Below are positions 3,185 to 64,000 of a stretch of DNA of 64,000 nucleotides, piece by piece; position 1 is the stretch's first letter, and the number at the start of each line of letters is the position of its first letter. The position numbers and the translations under genes are program-made. The notes under the pieces are model-generated. The model was not told the DNA's origin and did not search any database. It saw nothing but the letters and a program-made list of their open reading frames with translations. Source of the stretch: Rhodamnia argentea (taxonomy: Eukaryota; Streptophyta; Magnoliopsida; Myrtales; Myrtaceae); the NCBI RefSeq assembly GCF_020921035.1, contig NC_063158.1:26391962-26455961 (forward strand). Reading direction: 5' to 3'.

Positions 3185-3740
3185 TTCCGGGTTTCAAGAT
3201 TGGTCATTCAGGTGAGAGATGGGTAGGAGCTCCTGATCGCATAAAGGAGTGATTTTTAGTGCTCTGGAGGGGCAAGGCGGTGGTGGGTCGATTCGGATTG
3301 GAGCTGCCAAGGAGCAGCAGTGTGTGTAACCGTCTATAAAGAAGAAGGGCCGACGAAAGAAGAGAGGTTGCAGAAGCTGCCAGTGCCAGTGACGGAGATC
3401 TTTTTGGTTCATTTTTGCTTATTCTTTTGAGCTGCTTATTAGCGCGTGGCAAGTGGAGATTATCGAGTCCCGCTTGGTAATCTTGCTGGGGCCCTCCTCT
3501 TAGACGTCCATAATTTAGTTCGACAGACAGAAGGAAAGAACGGAAGGAAAACCATCCTTCTGTCATTATTTGGAGGATGGAGGCCATGGGGGTCCTTCTG
3601 CAAATGATGTGACCGAACAACTAAGATCATGATTAGAATGTATGAAAATACTCTACAAGCTCATGAAATTATACGTATTTCGTTTACCCTTTAATCCAAC
3701 AATCATGTGCCATTAGCAGCGTTTGTGAGTTTATTTCAAA
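3185..3740 (-). promoter_or_regulatory. 5' flank and presumed promoter of the glucanase gene
   Basis: GC-richer sequence directly upstream of the glucanase ATG, then AT-rich DNA. ORFs here are shadows. No clear TATA box was identified, so promoter status is inferred from position only. Confidence 0.35.
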
Positions 3741-4350: not shown

Positions 4351-6444
4351 TATTTCAAAATGAAAAGCTTTACACCGGTCATTTAAACGATACTCCAATG
4401 TATGCAGAAAACCTTTGTCATGAGTGTCAGAAAACGAACTGGAGAACATTAATGAGAGAGATGAAGCCTTTGCAGAGGCCGTGTGTGGCTGCAGACACCA
4501 ACGAGTGGCGCCTGATAAAACTCAATTGGTTAGAAGCCCTGAGTCCTGATGTTGTCCTTTTGCTTGAGCAGTTTTGATAGCACTACCGAGTTTCACGTGA
4601 AGATGAGATTTCTTGTCCTATCCATCTCATCGCAATGCGTCTATTTTATTAGGAAAGGAAAAACTGACAAGAAAAATACTCTTATGCCCCAGGCAGATTC
4701 TGCCATTGATCTTTCGGCAGCTTAGCCCTGAAAAATTCAAACTTTGCTGCACATAAACCAGGACAGGGACATAACTATTTTGTGACTGAACCGAGCCTGA
4801 GTTCGAGCGTTTCTTTCGTGAGCCTTTTCAGATGAGTATTTGAATAACCACCGTTCGATTTCGGAAATATAGGTTATGTTCGCCCATCCTACTAATCTCC
4901 ATATTCGACCAAACATATTCTTCATAATTTTTTCAAATTGTTCAATCTCGTCTCCGTCCTTTTTTTTTTTTATAGCAAACATGATCCTTGAACCATGCTT
5001 CTTTTTATTTAAGTTAGTCTTCTGTCAACAATGCAAACGAAAGCATTAATGCTTCTTCTTCTTTTTTTTTTTTTGGTTAGTGACCTCGCCAAGTCTTCAC
5101 CGGGGTCAACTCGGCCCCGATCGCCGCCAAACTGTGGCCATCGCTGCAGAAAGTAGCATTGATGCTTATAGGGTTGCAATCTATTTTTTTTTCAAACCGG
5201 TGCCATTATCCTGAAAATCCATCATTCAGACAAAATTCCTAAGTTGTTCAAAATAGGAACTCAAATCTCTTTTCAATCGGCTGCATATACAATTCTGATC
5301 AACTATTGTCGGTTGCTATGGAGTAGAGACCAAAAAAGGAGAAAGTTTTACCATGCTTCTTCATAAGAAGCAATCACGCGATCTTGAACACCGATTAAAA
5401 CATGCCATTCTAACTTGTCTGGAATCTACTGAATGATTTAAAAAGAACACCCCAGAAAAATGAGCACCAACCAGGGTACTACTTTTTGGGTATTTTCCCA
5501 TTTCTAACATCGGATGAAAGCTGACAAAGTATTCCCTCAGGACATATGTTCGACTCAAAGTGACTGGCAAACGACAAAATTCACATGCGACGAAGCAGAC
5601 TAGGACAGTTGTAACATTCCAAGCACTTCTTTTTCCGATGGTAACATGTGTGGGAAGCTGGTTTGGCACCTAAATTGCACAAAAAAAAGTCCACCTTATG
5701 ATTCCATGGGCTCGGTTCATGAGCTTTTGCGTTTTTCCTTAAATCTGTCTTTGGGCAGTCGTTCCCCTTGGAGACTTTGCTTTGTATGCTGATAAGGTTT
5801 TGTAGCTTTCGGGAAAGTTGCATTCCCCAAAAGTTGCGATTCTCATTCTCATCTTTTACTTTTGAGAAAGAACCACGAAAGCATCGCCAATTCTCTCCCA
5901 AAACAAAGAAAAATTGGCTATTTAGGGACCCGAAAACAGAGCTTGTCTGAAACTTTTCATGTGAACATTACATCTTCAGTGCTCAATCACAACGCATCTT
6001 TTCACTTTGCGGTTTTGCAAAGATTTCACAAAGGCCAGATGAGACATATTGGCCCCACATTCCATTCCCGCATTCCAAAGCAAAAGACCAAAGAAAGAAA
6101 ACACACGATTGTCCACAAATAATTGCACCTAAACTTTGTCAAACAACAAAGAAAGTAGAGAAAGGGGAAACCCACGACCGACATAAATTTCACAACACCA
6201 TCAAAGCTAAGACAACTTCGAATACCATGAAATACGTACCAGCTGATTTATGTTTCCAAGTTCTTGTTTTGGCCAAAAAAACAAAAAATGTGTGTACTTC
6301 AACTGATTCTAAAGCACATTAATCAGCACTTTTATTCACTACCATATCGGGCGACTCCGACGTTTCCAATCACCCCGGAATGCGAAGCTGATAGGATCAC
6401 AGGATGCTCATAAAACGAGCACCGCAAAATTTGGCATCAGACAT
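4351..6444. other. Intergenic, no gene seen
   Basis: AT-rich DNA with homopolymer runs. A GC-rich scrap at about 5075-5150 (CCTCGCC and GATCGCCG motifs) resembles filler found in other repeats of this window. The last few hundred bases should contain the 3' UTR of the phosphofructokinase. ORFs of up to 106 codons overlap on both strands and match nothing I recognise. Confidence 0.45.
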
Positions 6445-55005: not shown

Positions 55006-57954
55006 TGTCACGCCCCGACTCTCGAGCTCGCGACATCCCTACCTTACTCGCCTCGGGTCATGAATGATAGCATCCCGGGTAGGCTATCGACCTACGAAAA
55101 ATTTCGGCGCATGCGGAACGTGCAACTCCCAAACAAACAAAATCAGCGGGGATAGTTCGGTAGGAAAACACCACAGTCAATTCACAAAAGACAATTTCAT
55201 TAAACGGTCAAAGTGACGAATCTTAACACTACTGAGCTACAGTAAATATGTACAACCCCATTCTTCGGGGCGGCTCACTAAGACCTCAAAAAGACACAAG
55301 GTCGGGTAAGGTTAATCCTTCGTCTACTCCCAAAAATCCTACCACAATCCTCTCGGTTTAACGTCCACGGCCTTCAAGATCGCTTCGAAAATTGTTAACC
55401 ACGACGGGGTGAGAAATTAATCTCGGTGAGCCAACGCCTAAGCTCGGTTAGGACGTTGATTCGCTCAGACACCCTAATAAGCAGCCACATCAACACAGAA
55501 TAGATATTTCAACTACATGCAAGCTTACCCTCCCGGGCCACATAATGCAATGCGGACTTGACTTAGCATCCCAACCAACCAAACCGATTCAACACCAACC
55601 GAAAAGCATTACAGCACTTGCATGCACAGGACACCACACGTAGTCCATTTATTAATCGGTGACCCACGCGACGGGCGTGGTTGGCGCACACGACCGGTGT
55701 GGCCCCAACACTACGACCGGCGGTGTCTACCGGCGGGACCGGGCATCGTCCCTTACTTCCGGCGACGGCGAGCGAAAGCTATGTATCTGTGCGTAAGCGG
55801 CACGGCATAGCAGACAGGCATTCCAAAAGGAGCGCCGGTCCGTCACAAGCTGCGACCGGCATCCGACAATTCGTGTGATCCGTACGGCGCACGGGCACGA
55901 ATTGACGTGCTTCGACAAGTCGTGTGGTTCCGTACGACCGGCACAGTACTAACTTGTCGGGATCCCGTACGGCGGCACGGTTTACACCCATCATATGACC
56001 ACTCAAGCACATCCGACAACCAGCCAGTTCATTTCTTGGATTTAGGTCGAATGCTCATACTCACATGTTCAAATGCTTGGCCCAAGGCCGTTTTCGTGCA
56101 AAAACATGCAATTTTATCTCATACGTGGTCACATGAATGCGCAATTTAAATCGATTGTCACACCAGGCAATTTGGGGCGACTAACTTCTAATCGGACCCC
56201 TACGGCAATCAACAACCAAAGCGGCACTCACGGCCAATAATTCAATAATTAAATTAATCAATTGCAGCGAGTCGATTATCAATCCCAATTTCAATTCCAA
56301 TTGCGCACTCGTCTCTGACCTATCGCTCGCTCGCGATCAATCAATGCAAACAATCGGATCAATCAATCAATCTAATATAATTAGACATAGAATCCTAACT
56401 AATTAGACCAACTTAACCAATTAGGACCATTGAACCTAAACCAAATTTCTAACCTAAACCGGCCCTAATTGAGCTACCTAAACACCTAATAATCTAATTA
56501 AACTAATCCGAACGCAATTAGCGTCCTAACCAAGAGTTAGGGGCTAACTCACAATTTTAAAAGCTCGGGCGGTCTCAACTCGAGCGGCGGCGACGCGAAC
56601 TCGGCCCGGCCCGACGGCGACGACGAAACACGGCCCGATCCACTTAACTCCGGGGCTTCTAATTTGGTTAAAGGCGGGCCAAAGACTTGGCGACACCTCG
56701 GGACGACGGCGGGGCTCGGGGTTAGCGGCCGGTTCTGGAGCCGGCCGGGCAATGACCGGCCGGCGTGAACAATGCCGGGCGGAAAAAGGGCAGCAAGTAA
56801 CAACGGGGGAAACGGGCTGTTCCGAGGGGGTTCCAGGCGTCCAAAGTTGGGGAAAAGCTTAGCCAACGTCGGGGGTCTCCGGGGAGGGCTGTAGGTGGCG
56901 GGTGGCAGGCGATAGGTGGCCGGAGGCGGCGGTTCCAAGCTGCCCTGAGAACCGGTGCAAGTAAAACGGGCGGTTTCAAAAAATAAGGGAGGTGATCTCC
57001 GGGCTGTTCGGAGCTCTACGGGCTGCGACCAACCTCCGGTGGCCTTGGGGGAAGATGTGGGGTCGAGGTGGTCGTTCGGGGTGGTTTGGGGTGGCGGAAT
57101 CGGCGGAGGGCGCTGGAACGTGAGGCGGTGGTTGGGCGACACAAAAACGGGCGGGTGGGTCGCCGGGGCTGTTGCGGGGCTGAATCGCGGCTCTGCGGCG
57201 GCTCACGGCGGTGGGGTGGCTTCACGGAGGTAGAGAGGGAGATGGGATGGTGGTAGGTGGCGGTCGGAAGCGGCTCGGGGCGGCCGGCACAGCTCGGGCA
57301 GCCCTGAACCCGAAACAGCGAGGGGACAGGGGCTTCTGGCCGCTGCTCGGCGGCGAACAACGGCCGAAGCGGAGGCGGAGCGGCGGCGGAGGGTGGGCTG
57401 GAGGTGCGTGGTGGTGGTTGGGGTGTTGGTCGCACAAAAATGACCAAGGAAGAAGAGGATGTCTTTGGTTCTCGGAGGGGGTCGTGCACAACACGGAGGA
57501 GAGAGAGGCGGACGGGAAAGAGAGGAGGGGAGGGAGAGAGAGAGAGAAAAGTCACGTGGGTTTGACTAGGGGCTGATCGGGTTTGAATGGGTGGGGCCCA
57601 CAGGTCACTCAAAATTAATGGTTTTTGGCTTATATGTATAATATCCAAGGGCGGTTACGTATTTTGACAAATCGGAATTTGGTTGGATTTTTGGCTCAAT
57701 CGATTAGGACTGAAATTTGGATTTTCACGGGCTAGGTTCGGTCCGGAAAATTTTAGGCGCGAGGATTAAAAATCCTAAGTCGCGGCGACCACCGGTTTCG
57801 AGACCCAATCGAAACCGAACGACATTTCGGGACTCGTCCAAATTTGTCGTTTACGTCCTTGCGATCCAAAAATTTGCACCGACTAAAATTCAATTCTCTC
57901 CCTTTTTATTGAATTCGGGCAAATTTACATAGGCCAAATTTCCCGGGCGTCACA
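55006..57954 (-). repeat. 3' LTR of the gypsy element (2949 bp)
   Basis: On the plus strand it starts TGTCACGCCCCGACTC and ends GCGTCACA, so in element sense it runs TGTGACGC..GCGTGACA. About 440 bp at its left end repeat at 61906 with some 13-16 differences. It includes a GC-rich stretch (56550-57560) full of proline-rich pseudo-ORFs. A minus-strand TATA candidate (ATTATACATATAAGCC) lies near 57620-57640, ahead of a CT-rich leader. Confidence 0.88.
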
Positions 57955-57970
57955 ACTCTCCCCACCTTAG
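57955..57970 (-). other. Polypurine tract of the gypsy element
   Basis: Minus strand reads TAAGGTGGGGAGAGTT immediately before the LTR start TGTGACG, the normal position for priming plus-strand DNA synthesis. Confidence 0.8.
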
Positions 57971-57999: not shown

Positions 58000-58380
58000 T
58001 TACAACTCTTCAAAAAGATATAGATAGCTACTCTTCATAACTTCTTCGTTCTCCCATGTAGCTCCTTCGGTTCCATGGTGTTGCCAAACCACTTTGACTA
58101 GCGGAATAGTCTTACTCCGGAGCACTTGTTCTTTCCTATCCATGATCCCGATTGGGTATTCCACGTACCCAGCTCGCTCATCTAGCTCAATTTCCTCATA
58201 ACTCAGCACATGAGCAAGGTCTGGTTCATACTTTCTTAACATTGACACGTGTAATACCTTATGTACTTGAGCCAGTCTTGACGGCGGTGCAAAACGACAT
58301 GCCAGATTTCCAATCCACTCCAAAATCTCGAAAGGCCCAATATACCTAGGGCTCAACTTTCCTTTCTCGTTCCACGTATG
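58000..58380 (-). CDS. Gypsy integrase C-terminal domain with chromodomain-like tail (remnant)
   Basis: Starts within KLSPRYIGPFEILEWIGN and includes HVSMLRKYEPD, HVLSYEEIELD, IMDRKEQVLRSKTIPLVKV and WQHHGTEGATWENEE, the standard end of chromovirus integrases. Upstream of the KLSPRYIGPF start the frame and homology end abruptly, marking a deletion breakpoint that removed the rest of pol. Confidence 0.85.
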   Translation of the reverse strand, partial: HTWNEKGKLSPRYIGPFEILEWIGNLACRFAPPSRLAQVHKVLHVSMLRKYEPDLAHVLSYEEIELDERAGYVEYPIGIMDRKEQVLRSKTIPLVKVVWQHHGTEGATWENEEVMKSSYLYLFEEL

Positions 58381-59394
58381 CCAATTTCAATCAACACTAA
58401 TGGTAATTTGAGCATTCTATTTAAATGGGCAAGGTCAAATACTAATTGGTTCTTTCTTAACACTCCAAGATTGGAACTATCACTGGCAACCATTGGGATA
58501 TTCATAGAATCATTGACTTCAGGTACCCATTTGAACTAGGGTCGGACCACTCATTCCGCCATGACAGTTCGGCTCACGGACAATCGACGAGTCGAGGGCC
58601 ACCTTGATTATCTCGATTTAGGGTTGGAATCACCCGTTCCTAGACCGATGGTAAAGTCAAGTACTATCGAGATCACCTCTCATGACCAATTCAAATTGAT
58701 GCGGGATTGGTTCGTCTCGACCCGTATTCTTCCAACACGCGTCACTCGATCCGGGGTGATCAGTCCTTGACCCGTCCGCGGCTGGTACGGGGTTCTAGTA
58801 CAATTCGTCCCTCACTGGATCAATGGCCTACTTGTCTGTCAATCAATGTTAGCTCGTAGCTCACACCACAGATCAATCCCTAGTGACTTCGGGGTGATCC
58901 TATGGGTGACTTACAGCTAAACAAGATTAACTCAAATCGATCCATGCACGATTCAAGGTCGTCACACAGTCGAACCTCAATCAACGGCGCAACCGACTAG
59001 CACATTAAGCCATGATCCATGCCGAAGGTGACTTCTAACCTCTCGGTGGCCTCCCTCACTCTTGGTCGTCACTCGTGAATGGTCCGAGTGTATAGCAAAA
59101 CTCTTGTAATCATCATCTCGTTCAGCTCCATGGTTTCACCTGACTTTCGCTACGTATTCCAATCGGTTGTCTTCCTGAATTGCCACATCTCGCAATCTTA
59201 ACCTTTTATCAAGTTGGCACCGATCCTAACGACTTATAGAGCTAGTTGGCAAATCTCATCCTACCGTCAACTCATAACTTGCCATTACGAACCTTTCCCG
59301 TTCGTTTCTACAATTTCTCATTCCTCATATTGCCCGAGGCTCCATTAGTTAAGGCATGCCAGTAAAGCGGTTTGCAACATCTATAAAGCATAAG
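58381..59394 (-). other. Non-coding spacer inside the gypsy element
   Basis: Moderate GC content; no recognisable gag-pol or host protein on either strand. It may be filler typical of non-autonomous derivatives. The region from about 59280 to 59394 could be a decayed extension of the NRPE1 fragment, but I could not confirm homology. Confidence 0.4.
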
Positions 59395-60060
59395 AAATAT
59401 TTTCTCTTCAGCGACAACGGGGAATCGGTTACTAGTTGCAGACTTAGATTGTCACCATGTGAGCTCAAGACTCGCATTTCTTCTTGAAAAGAGTTTTACT
59501 ATCTCGGCCTTTGCGGGTGCCGACTTGGGATAGAACGGGTGGATACAATCGCCGTCGAAGTCAGTACTAAGAGGTGTACGGACCAAGGGATTTATCTTCA
59601 CGGTATGATCATCGTGTACATAAACCAATATTGCTTGTAAAATGTACTTATGTGTAGCTGGCGGCCTATTGATAAACACGATGTTCCCATCCATAATCCC
59701 GCAATGGATGACTTAGCCAAGCCTCAAAGAGGTATGCCCTTTGGAATCCTCTCTAAGTGGATACATAGTTGAACCATCTTTGTGTGCTCGACATAGCTTC
59801 TTGTTGGCCAGATTCTGCATATAATTCATGTTACAAATAGTGACCTTCTCCTCAAATGTCATTCTCTGCGCCATCTTAGTAAGAACGCCTACTTCATTGA
59901 CCTTCTTAAGGGCGTCACTAATGACCACTGCGAGAGAAAATCCTGAGCCTTCTCACGATCAATAGCGTCCTCATTTGTCAAGCCCCGCTATGGTAGCGTA
60001 GTTATTAGCTCATTACCAATCCTATAACGTGTATCGATATCTCGAGATGCCTCTGCACTA
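59395..60060 (-). pseudogene. NRPE1: Captured fragment of NRPE1 (RNA polymerase V largest subunit)
   Basis: Element-sense reading shows, in order, ASRDIDTRYRIG; MRTLLIVRR and FSRSG in one frame; VVISDALKKVNEVGVLTKMA; QRMTFEEKVTICN; LANKKLCRAHKDGS; DSKGHTSLRLG; MDGNIVFINRPPATHKY; VYVHDDHTVKINPL; STDFDGDCIHPFYPKS; AKAEIVKLFS; then, after a frameshift, SSHGDNLSLQLVTDSPLSLK. DFDGD is the catalytic magnesium motif of the largest RNA polymerase subunit, and the following FYP phrase fits Pol V rather than Pol II or Pol IV. Disabled by a stop at the RLG|VIH junction and at least two frameshifts. No intron interrupts the segment. Pol V acts in RNA-directed DNA methylation of transposons. Confidence 0.85.
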
Positions 60061-60659
60061 CTTACCTCATCAATCGAGGCTATCAACCAAAATCAATAAC
60101 TTAAACTTATGGAGATGCCGCACCAATTTCGGACTCATACTCTACGAGTATCAGTTACTCCAATTCCATATCCATAATCCCTTCAAATGGGATACTCATT
60201 GATTCCCACGACTCAAGCTGAATCTTTGCCTTCCGAGGCTTGATCTATAACAACCCAAAATTTCAATCATAAAGTCCCGCTATTTTCCCATCCTTAAAAG
60301 AACTGTTCATCCCACTACTTCTATCAGCTTTAATTCAAGCTTAAAACTTCATGATTCTCGCTAGCTTTCTTGCGTAGCTTAATCATTTTACCAACCAGAA
60401 GTATTGACGGAAGTTGATAGTTGAAACCATCAAGATACAGCACGAGTTCAAACTTTCGTAATCCATAAAAGTACCAGTCACCTTATTACAACTCATATGC
60501 GTAAGTCGAGTTTAACAAAAGTTCTTCTTATCTCGACTAGTCCTAGCTAACCTATAGCCAGGATATTCTACCACGAACGTCATCCTATCTCTATGCTTGG
60601 GACCGATTCTGAAGATCCCGTGATACGTTTTCCTCCAGGCTGTTTCCCTTGTGGCCTAT
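60061..60659 (-). other. Non-coding spacer between gag and the NRPE1 fragment
   Basis: AT-richer than gag, with no recognisable protein on either strand. This is where protease and reverse transcriptase would be expected in a full element. Confidence 0.45.
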
Positions 60660-61699
60660 TCCGCTGTCTCTGCGGGCAGTCTCTCACTTGATGACCAAAC
60701 TGGCCACATCCAAAACATGCCCCTCCTCTAAACGGGCACGGACCGGGTCCATGCCTTTAGCGGCATAAGTGACATGCTCCATCTTGGCGGAACATCGGCT
60801 AACGATCGCCCCTCTTCTGTTGGGCGGGATGTGGTGTCTACCACTAGGCATCGGCCTCTTTCCTTGCCGAATGTCCCTTCTGTACGAAGGTACAAACCAC
60901 GATCCAGTTGCGGCAGCCCTTTTAGCGAGATCACGTTCTACCATCTGCGCCTTCTCATACAGGTCGTCATAATCCTTCGGGTTGAGCGGCACCAACACGC
61001 TCTTGATCTCCGGTTTCAGCCCATCCCTGAATCTTCTTGCCCTATCCACGGGGTCCTCTATCATTCTTGGGGCATACTTTGACAAATCAGCAAATCTCGC
61101 CTCATATTCATCCATTGACAGTGATTCGACGCGGGCGAAGGAACTCAACCATCTTCCTGTTCCCTCGCAATTACGAGAAGTACTTTCAGTTAAAGGTCTC
61201 CACGAAGGCATTCCACGCCGGAACCGTACCTTCGGGAAAGACTCGCTCCTTAGAAGCTCTCCACCATGTACTCGCATTCCCCCGCAATTGATAAACGGCC
61301 AAAGTGACCTTATCCTCCTCGGTACACCTCACAGGCAAACGCCTTCTCTAACTCCTCGATCCACGAGGTAGCAGGCTTCGTGGTCTCCGCTCCCGGAGAA
61401 CTTGGGCGGCTTCAATTTCGGAAATTGTTCCACTAACTTATGTGCTTGATGTCCAACATTTGCTGCTCCAATTGGCACGTTTCCTCGTGGTGGTGCCAGG
61501 ACGGTAGCATTCGGTTTCTTACTTGCTGCCCCATAAGGTCTCCAATGGCTCCCAGTGCTTGGAGAATCCCAGCCATAGTCGACTCTTGCCCAACCGGCTC
61601 TGCAGCGCGCGGCGCTCTTTCTTCCTCTAGAATCTCCCCTATCGGCTCGACGGGCCGGTCCGAGGTCCCTCGGGGTGCTCTTCTACCACGTGCGCTCAT
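60660..61699 (-). CDS. Degenerate gypsy gag
   Basis: N-terminal part from 61699 (MSARGRRAPRGTSDRPVEPI, later MAGILQALGAIGDLMGQQV). The capsid-like part lies at 60684-61277 (LSMDEYEARFADLSKYAPRM, RARRFRDGLKPEIKSVL, DYDDLYEKAQMVERDLAKR). A CCHC zinc knuckle, CGQFGHQVRDC with its preceding CFG, lies near 60677-60718 in a shifted frame. At least two frameshifts separate these parts, so no full Gag is made. Gag domains rather than pol are the best-kept coding sequence in the element. Confidence 0.8.
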
Positions 61700-61878: not shown

Positions 61879-61892
61879 TTGCTCTGATACCA
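61879..61892 (-). other. tRNA-Met-type primer binding site
   Basis: Minus strand reads TGGTATCAGAGCAA, matching the usual plant initiator-Met PBS core TGGTATCAGAGC, 13 bp inside the end of the 5' LTR. Confidence 0.85.
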
Positions 61893-61905: not shown

Positions 61906-62477
61906 TGTCACGCTCCGACTCTCGAGCTCGCGACATCCCTACCTTACTCGCCTCGGGTCATGAATGATAGCATCCCAGGTAGGCTATCGACCTACGAAAA
62001 ACTTCGGCGCATGCGGAACGTGCAACTCGCAAACAAACAAAATCAGCATGGATAGTTCGGTAGGAAAACACCACGGTCAATTCACAAAAGACAATTTCAT
62101 TAAACGGTCAAAGCGGACGAATCTTAACCCTACTGAGCTACAGTAAATATGTACAACCCCATTCTTCGGGGCGGCTCACTAAGACCTCAAAAAGACACAA
62201 GGTCGGGTAAGGTTAATCATTCGTCTACTCCCAAAAATCCTACCACAATCCTCTCGGTTTAACGTCCACGGCCTTCAGCATTGCTCGAAAATTGTTAACC
62301 ACGACGGGGTGAGAAATTAATCTCGGTGAGCCAACGCCTAATGCAATGCAGACTTGACTTAATCGTCAACCAACCAAACCGATTCAACACTCTGCAAAGC
62401 ATTACAGCACTTGCATGCACAGGACACCACACGTAGTCCATTTATTAATCGGTGACCCACGCGATCGGCGTGGTTGG
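61906..62477 (-). repeat. Truncated 5' LTR of the gypsy element
   Basis: Starts TGTCACGCTCCGACTC and follows the 3' LTR closely. About 100 bp present at 55448-55548 are missing here (junction CGCCTAATGCAATG). Homology ends at GGCGTGGTTGG; in the intact LTR this point is near 55685, so about 2.3 kb of LTR is absent or displaced to the right. Confidence 0.85.
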
Positions 62478-62667
62478 TGTTGACGCCTAAATTTTGACTA
62501 ATCTATTTTTTGCATAAAAATTAGAATTAATTTTAGTTCTAAATAAAAATCATCTCACATATTTATTTTTAGCGTACATTGCATTGGCATATAATTGGGC
62601 AAGCGGAACACTTAATTTAGCATGCGTCTAGACTAGGCACTGGATGGAAAAATACACTGAGAAGATT

Positions 62668-62756
62668 TGAAACTTCAGGGACCGTATTGCAAATACTTAA
62701 AACTCGGGACTGTATTGCAAATACTTGAAACCTTCGGGGACCGCATTGCAAATACC
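62668..62756. repeat. Three tandem ~30-bp units
   Basis: The core GGGACCGTATTGCAAATAC occurs three times with small changes (GGGACTGTATTGCAAATAC, GGGACCGCATTGCAAATAC), each preceded by AAACTT/AAACTC/AAACCTT. Confidence 0.8.
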
Positions 62757-63016
62757 AAAAGAAGATGGAGAAGGGAAGATGGTGAAGGGAAGATAATGAA
62801 AGGAAGATGGTGAAGGGAAGATAATGAAAGGAAGATGGTGAAGAGAAGATAAAGAAGGGAAGATAATGAAAGGAAGATGGTGAAGAGAAGATGAATATGA
62901 AGAAGGGAAGATGAAAATGGAAGGTGGAGAAATGAAGATGAAGAAGAGAAGATGAAGATGAAGAAGAGAAGATGAAAATGGAAGGTGGAGAAATGAAGAT
63001 GAAGAATGAAGGATGA
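62757..63016. repeat. Purine-rich tandem tract
   Basis: Nearly all A and G, with repeated GGAAGATGGTGAAGGGAAG, GAAGATAATGAAAG and GAAGATGAAGAAG units, some as longer direct repeats (about 62900-62960 and 62965-63010). It could form triplex or H-DNA and lies just upstream of the TATA box. Confidence 0.75.
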
Positions 63017-63035: not shown

Positions 63036-63230
63036 AGGAAGAGAATTGAGAGAGTTTTTTGGGGAGTGAAAGAGAATTGAGAGAGTTTTAGAGTGGAAGA
63101 GAATTGAGAGAATTTGTGAGAGAAATTCTTTAGAGAGGAAAAAAGAGAGTTCTTGAGAAAAGTTGGAAGAGAAAATTTGAGAGTGAAGAAAAGAGTTTTA
63201 GTCGAGCATCATCTTTGCTAAACTCCTAAA

Positions 63231-64000
63231 CCCTAAACCCTAAACCCTAAACCCTAAACCCTAAACCCTAAACCCTAAACCCTAAACCCTAAACCCTAAA
63301 CCCTAAACCCTAAACCCTAAACCCTAAACCCTAAACCCTAAACCCTAAACCCTAAACCCTAAACCCTAAACCCTAAACCCTAAACCCTAAACCCTAAACC
63401 CTAAACCCTAAACCCTAAACCCTAAACCCTAAACCCTAAACCCTAAACCCTAAACCCTAAACCCTAAACCCTAAACCCTAAACCCTAAACCCTAAACCCT
63501 AAACCCTAAACCCTAAACCCTAAACCCTAAACCCTAAACCCTAAACCCTAAACCCTAAACCCTAAACCCTAAACCCTAAACCCTAAACCCTAAACCCTAA
63601 ACCCTAAACCCTAAACCCTAAACCCTAAACCCTAAACCCTAAACCCTAAACCCTAAACCCTAAACCCTAAACCCTAAACCCTAAACCCTAAACCCTAAAC
63701 CCTAAACCCTAAACCCTAAACCCTAAACCCTAAACCCTAAACCCTAAACCCTAAACCCTAAACCCTAAACCCTAAACCCTAAACCCTAAACCCTAAACCC
63801 TAAACCCTAAACCCTAAACCCTAAACCCTAAACCCTAAACCCTAAACCCTAAACCCTAAACCCTAAACCCTAAACCCTAAACCCTAAACCCTAAACCCTA
63901 AACCCTAAACCCTAAACCCTAAACCCTAAACCCTAAACCCTAAACCCTAAACCCTAAACCCTAAACCCTAAACCCTAAACCCTAAACCCTAAACCCTAAA
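63231..64000. repeat. Telomeric-type (CCCTAAA)n array, 110 perfect units to the window edge
   Basis: 770 bp with a constant 7-bp period and no variant unit that I could find. The join is TTTGCTAAACTCCTAAACCC: a TCCTAAA near-unit precedes the first perfect one. On the plus strand a right-hand chromosome end should read TTTAGGG, so this array is inverted relative to a terminus lying to the right. Confidence 0.95.

Follow-up and report, generated by a model that had tools for sequence, protein, structure and literature searches.

Pol V is a polymerase that helps to silence transposons and recruits methylation to them. The question raised by this locus is how a piece of NRPE1, the gene for the largest Pol V subunit, came to lie inside a retrotransposon, and whether the element makes any use of it. 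From the letters of one stretch of Rhodamnia argentea DNA (the window; 64,000 nucleotides, C9:26391962-26455961), an original prediction had put such a fragment at 59395..60060. We find a decayed fragment of the Pol V largest subunit on the minus strand at 59347-60061; the prediction was thus right about position and somewhat short on extent. Among solved structures, its peptide scores highest with the Pol V largest subunit (8hyj, E 7.1e-59, 201 bits); Pol IV subunit 1 reaches 66 bits, Pol III 58 and Pol II no more than 48. Pfam assigns the peptide to RNA_pol_Rpb1_2 (E 4.6e-22). At the DNA level the piece matches the host NRPE1 gene in a main block (window 60061-59405, 81.6% over 662 columns) and again past a deletion (window 59380-59347, 34 bases, 82%). 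Together, the 201-bit score and the DNA match rule out a chance peptide match and bear out the predicted identity, and no better match to another polymerase or to an unrelated protein emerged. One stop and several frameshifts break the window piece, as the prediction had also stated. A second apparent NRPE1 patch, a 20-base perfect match to positions 3247-3266 of the host stretch L022, was rejected: two relatives of the element that are free of NRPE1 (L040 and L041) match the host in that region too, so the patch is backbone similarity.

The piece sits between a broken gag and the integrase C-terminus, in the transcriptional sense of the element, whose internal part measures 3951 bases. Along the window, the features are as follows:

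55006..57954, minus strand: 3' LTR of 2949 bases with TG...CA ends, a direct repeat of 61906-62477; five siblings have the same limits and 5-bp duplications.
57955..57968, minus strand: polypurine tract AAGGTGGGGAGAGT in the element sense, read by eye, adjoining the LTR.
58000..58386, minus strand: integrase C-terminal open frame with an SH3-like domain (PF24626, E 1.1e-15).
58390..59345, minus strand: element backbone without a recognised domain (no Pfam match in three sense frames at E 0.1), present in further members of the family and in part also in NRPE1-free relatives.
59347..60061, minus strand: captured NRPE1 piece with stop, frameshifts and internal deletion, 81.6% identical in DNA to the host exon.
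60062..60600, minus strand: backbone upstream of the piece without a recognised domain (no Pfam match), 98-99% identical in the four closest siblings; parts of it occur in NRPE1-free relatives.
60659..61699, minus strand: broken gag with a zinc knuckle (zf-CCHC, PF00098) and a weak Retrotrans_gag match.
61881..61892, minus strand: primer binding site TGGTATCAGAGC, read by eye.
61906..62477, minus strand: inner end of the 5' LTR, cut at 62477, a direct repeat of the left LTR (K2P 0.043 over 571 bases).

The gag zinc knuckle scores 23.2 bits against a cut-off of 20.8, and the Retrotrans_gag match lies below its cut-off (17.7 vs 24.1). The tail of the integrase frame, as we see it, resembles a chromodomain, and the primer binding site is presumably of the initiator-Met tRNA type. 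With gag knuckle and PF24626 both on the minus strand, this arrangement agrees with the predicted placement inside a gypsy element, between gag and integrase on the sense strand, and with the predicted surround of two LTRs, polypurine tract and primer binding site. A Pfam search between the gag knuckle and the integrase C-terminus (six pieces with X at stops, three sense frames, NRPE1 stretch excluded) returned no match to reverse transcriptase, RNase H, protease or integrase core, so we take the element to be a probably non-autonomous Ty3/gypsy member. Rfam gave no match in the window. Past the cut end of the 5' LTR lies unrelated sequence with a GA-rich repeat of ~14 bases (62478-63000), then a telomere-type AAACCCT array at the window end (63228-63997) that runs into an N stretch. 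This lies ~687 kb before the contig end; either the array is interstitial and borders an assembly gap, or the contig is misjoined there.

We searched the genome (346.7 Mb, 74 contigs) at the DNA level with 59395-60060. All 22 candidates were scored and gave 23 rows; two loci accounted for two rows each, which leaves 21 loci: a single host NRPE1 gene and 20 that belong to the element, the one in the window among them. The 20 carriers are a lower bound because the search scores only the best candidates and skips very common words. The sole non-element locus among the 21, at C8:20826671 (L022), resembles the element nowhere outside the captured stretch. Its long open exon matches Pol V with 864 bits and Pol IV with 215, and the host stretch downstream (L034) contains a 593-residue open frame rich in GW/WG, which we take to be expected for NRPE1. 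Judged by its sequence, this locus represents the donor gene as it stands today. The captured segments (L022 4671-5330, 81.6%, and, after a gap, 5459-5492) lie entirely within one host exon, the open frame L022 4505-6448. The prediction had pointed out that no intron interrupts the piece; this holds, and its value as evidence is nil, because with a source inside a single host exon a missing intron says nothing about a processed or RNA origin. As for marks of capture at the RNA level, neither an intron boundary nor poly-A identifies the template of the piece as RNA, all of the piece coming from that one exon.

Five of the 19 other carriers (C2:12.08, C6:16.54, C6:16.33, C5:25.47 and C4:11.91) were fetched at both ends. 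All five have an LTR-internal-LTR structure flanked by perfect 5-bp target-site duplications (AATAG, AGAAC, CGGAT, ATATA and TTATC, respectively). The C6:16.54 copy lacks the first T of one LTR and otherwise has TG...CA ends, and the C4:11.91 copy holds ~2.6 kb of foreign DNA within its 3' LTR. Since these complete siblings have their own LTR pairs and duplications, the piece travels with the element. Siblings with the same NRPE1 junctions, which had been proposed as a check, thus exist. A separate later insertion into one element was considered and rejected: the siblings share the edges of the piece, each with its own target-site duplication. K2P distances between LTRs are 0.020 (C2:12.08), 0.0145 (C6:16.54), 0.026 (C6:16.33) and 0.037 (C5:25.47). 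At an assumed rate of 1.3e-8 substitutions per site per year the recent insertions would be, as a matter of scale only, roughly 0.5-1.7 million years old. LTR identity in older carriers is 92.9% (L023), 94.5% (L009), 85.7% (L010) and 83.7% (L015); in the stretch examined, L011 has no LTR pair.

The limits of the piece are defined by elements that lack it. A search with 60070-60600 returned 34 rows, 16 of them at 13 loci outside the NRPE1 hits, and three of these 13 loci (L039, L040 and L041) were fetched. Their match to the window backbone breaks off at 60061, 60066 and 60089, respectively, and resumes at 59344, 59323 and 59351; in between, these loci have ~440-570 other bases. From these breakpoints it follows that the piece took the place of backbone and extends over 60061-59347. 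GCAA is common to host ACTGCAAAGGC and backbone ATCGCAAGAC at the 5' edge. In L017-L020 the piece ends earlier, at a GAAGTT common to host and backbone, and L014 has a third, different 3' end. These short junction matches, read from backbone alignments of modest identity, fit a putative template switch.

Was the piece captured once? Its 5' edge aligns in 18 of the 20 loci, with a short duplication at the edge in L014; L013 is without the 5' end of the piece, and L021, outside this alignment, is collinear with the window across the edge. An internal deletion of ~102 bases (host ~5355-5457) is found in 13 of the 13 loci that reach it, the other seven ending earlier. The deletion was considered as a spliced cryptic intron and rejected: it starts with GTAAGT, but no AG is seen at its other end. 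The common 5' junction and the common deletion point to one old capture. Over 12 loci, distances in the piece correlate with those in the backbone upstream (Mantel r 0.93; 0 of 2000 permutations) and less closely with those in the backbone downstream (r 0.65; 1 of 2000). In the NRPE1 tree, the host branches off amid the older carriers, with a weak support of 0.589. Distances and tree are consistent with one capture followed by spread. Because L017-L020 retain backbone lost by the main lineage, recombination probably took part. Repeated capture, or renewed capture from NRPE1, in separate lineages of the family is unlikely in our estimate: the three different 3' ends (L017-L020, L014 and the main lineage) and the position of the host inside a star of carriers speak for it, and the single 5' edge and single internal deletion speak against it.

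We next consider whether the captured exon still encodes anything. In the five youngest copies, the three codon positions of the piece differ about equally often (98/2206, 78/2216 and 93/2201; pooled pairwise counts, which are not independent). Pooled change in these copies, again from pairwise counts that are not independent and not corrected for base composition, is 0.042 in the piece, 0.010 upstream and 0.020 and 0.041 downstream, with the integrase C-terminus (0.045) and gag (0.056) slightly above the piece. In the older subfamilies the corresponding values, with L015 left out of the pool for the piece, are 0.219 for the piece and 0.188, 0.172 and 0.153 for the flanks; gag, in L009 only, reaches 0.336. 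The piece therefore has no codon-position constraint among recent copies and, in the pooled comparison, changes at least as much as the non-coding flanks. Taken singly, it is no less conserved than the downstream flank in L014 (74% vs 69-71%) and L015 (82% vs 76-80%). Codon-position counts of L017-L020 against the host include backbone bases aligned to host and were set aside.

An intact, constrained NRPE1 frame is thus absent, given the stop, the frameshifts and the even codon positions. It could still be asked whether the element makes a chimeric protein that includes the piece, since the peptide identity of the piece remains high in places, the DFDGD motif included. We regard this as extremely improbable in view of the even spread of differences in recent copies, the stops or frameshifts within the piece in the copies translated, the ~102-base deletion that runs through the family and an upstream backbone that, in the window copy, is full of stops. 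The integrase C-terminal frame (58000-58386) has an excess of third-position differences in the five recent copies (pooled 49, 37 and 93 for positions 1, 2 and 3), an excess absent from gag and from the NRPE1 piece; this frame may have lost a coding constraint only recently, or may have recombined in from a helper element. The domain-less backbone (58390-59395 and 60070-60600) is better conserved than gag between most subfamilies (in L009, 86-87% and 83% vs 68%), an indication that it acts in cis or has been exchanged among elements.

A piece that encodes nothing could still act through its similarity to the gene it came from. Of the host 24-mers of the stretch, 78/799 are perfectly matched by any of the 20 copies. 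In a permutation control that covered 13 of the 19 element rows (all but L013 and L016-L020), the longest perfect run of the window copy to the host is 26 nt, as expected by chance (P 0.39), and the window and its four closest siblings are all at chance (longest run P 0.37-0.68). Special preservation of identity to the host was rejected for these five copies. L011 and L012 lie near the threshold (0.05-0.09). L014 and L015 exceed their shuffles in longest run (P 0.006 and 0.002) and in number of 24-mers (0.003 and 0 of 1000), an excess on which we do not rely because the insertions and deletions of these copies enter as mismatches and inflate the test. Given chance-level tracts and a rate of change at least that of the flanks, nothing suggests that identity to NRPE1 is being maintained.

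In one of the 20 loci, L017 (4286-5866; C2, ~24.214 Mb), we observed a 1590-base palindrome of 84.7% identity whose arms each comprise backbone upstream of the piece and ~85 bases of NRPE1; it could give rise to a hairpin RNA. The check used a threshold of 150 bases and handled the overlapping stretches of four siblings separately, and the host stretch L022 also showed a palindrome, of 219 bases.

The carriers might supply small RNAs on host NRPE1 that dampen or tune Pol V and so favour the family. Such a role is suggested by the sense orientation of the piece in a family with recent insertions (LTR K2P 0.0145-0.043), by the perfectly matched host 24-mers and by the L017 palindrome with NRPE1 in its arms; maize elements, moreover, are described in passages of PMC13317346 as siRNA reservoirs acting on donor genes. 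We nevertheless consider it very unlikely: chance alone would give perfect tracts as long as those of the window lineage, and in the pooled data the flanks change no faster than the piece. A more specific version, in which the transcribed piece would be kept across subfamilies and small RNAs derived from its RNAs, above all those of L017, would target the NRPE1 exon and reduce Pol V, is more doubtful still. If this version is true, the family would encode in its sequence a brake on RNA-directed DNA methylation: to silence the element would be to weaken the silencer.

The piece is most likely passive cargo, one of the two options that the prediction had left side by side; the even codon positions, a rate of change at least that of the flanks and the chance-level tracts of the window lineage all favour it. 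Our overall explanation sets out from what we observe directly, a host gene with a matching exon, breakpoints, 20 carrier loci and five complete siblings with duplications. An ancestral element would have captured ~0.8 kb of one NRPE1 exon in its own transcriptional sense and, in doing so, replaced roughly 440-570 bases of its backbone. Short stretches common to element RNA and NRPE1 mRNA would have let reverse transcriptase switch from one template to the other, copies would have been moved by proteins from other elements, and the piece would have been tolerated as passive cargo since that part of the element need not code. We consider it highly probable that all of these parts (a non-autonomous Ty3/gypsy family, an ancestral exon capture, template switching, movement by helper proteins and passive cargo) hold jointly.

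Gene capture by LTR elements is already known and often ends in decay. One case is Bs1 of maize, which we assume to belong to another superfamily branch than the element here. Bs1 is described in passages of PMC13317346 as an LTR retroelement with pieces of three host genes; both are non-autonomous LTR derivatives with host gene pieces inside, and in our complete siblings, too, the host piece lies within the LTRs and is copied with the element. The Bs1 chimeric gene, in the same passages, is reported to be transcribed and translated, whereas here there is one donor and no coding constraint. In rice and sorghum, according to the abstract of PMC3726574, LTR elements have captured many host genes, many of which are now neutral pseudogenes and some of which are matched by small RNAs. 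That abstract does not name NRPE1; in our case, one capture is traced through several subfamilies together with its donor and NRPE1-free relatives. The maize siRNA reservoirs resemble our family in that captured donor sequence is repeated in transposons; small RNAs and methylation were measured there, as far as the passages in PMC13317346 go, and here the likeness lies in shared sequence. Those passages also present VANC and KIU as anti-silencing genes of Vandal elements, again transposon cargo linked to escape from silencing, but Vandals are DNA transposons with functional proteins and our carriers keep no protein. Template switching is among the subjects of PMC1950507. In the open-access literature searched, we found no capture of NRPE1 or Pol V by a retrotransposon or Pack-MULE.

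The capture is real and well defined: a non-autonomous gypsy family carries part of an NRPE1 exon in many copies and has been copying this decaying piece for a long time. NRPE1 is itself part of the machinery for silencing such elements. A silencing conflict is an attractive idea, one that the available sequence evidence does not favour. The donor, relatives free of NRPE1 and 20 carriers all occur in a single genome, so that the family is a clean natural case, suited to asking whether captured pieces of silencing genes alter silencing. Small RNAs on NRPE1, if found, would point to a direct conflict between element and host.
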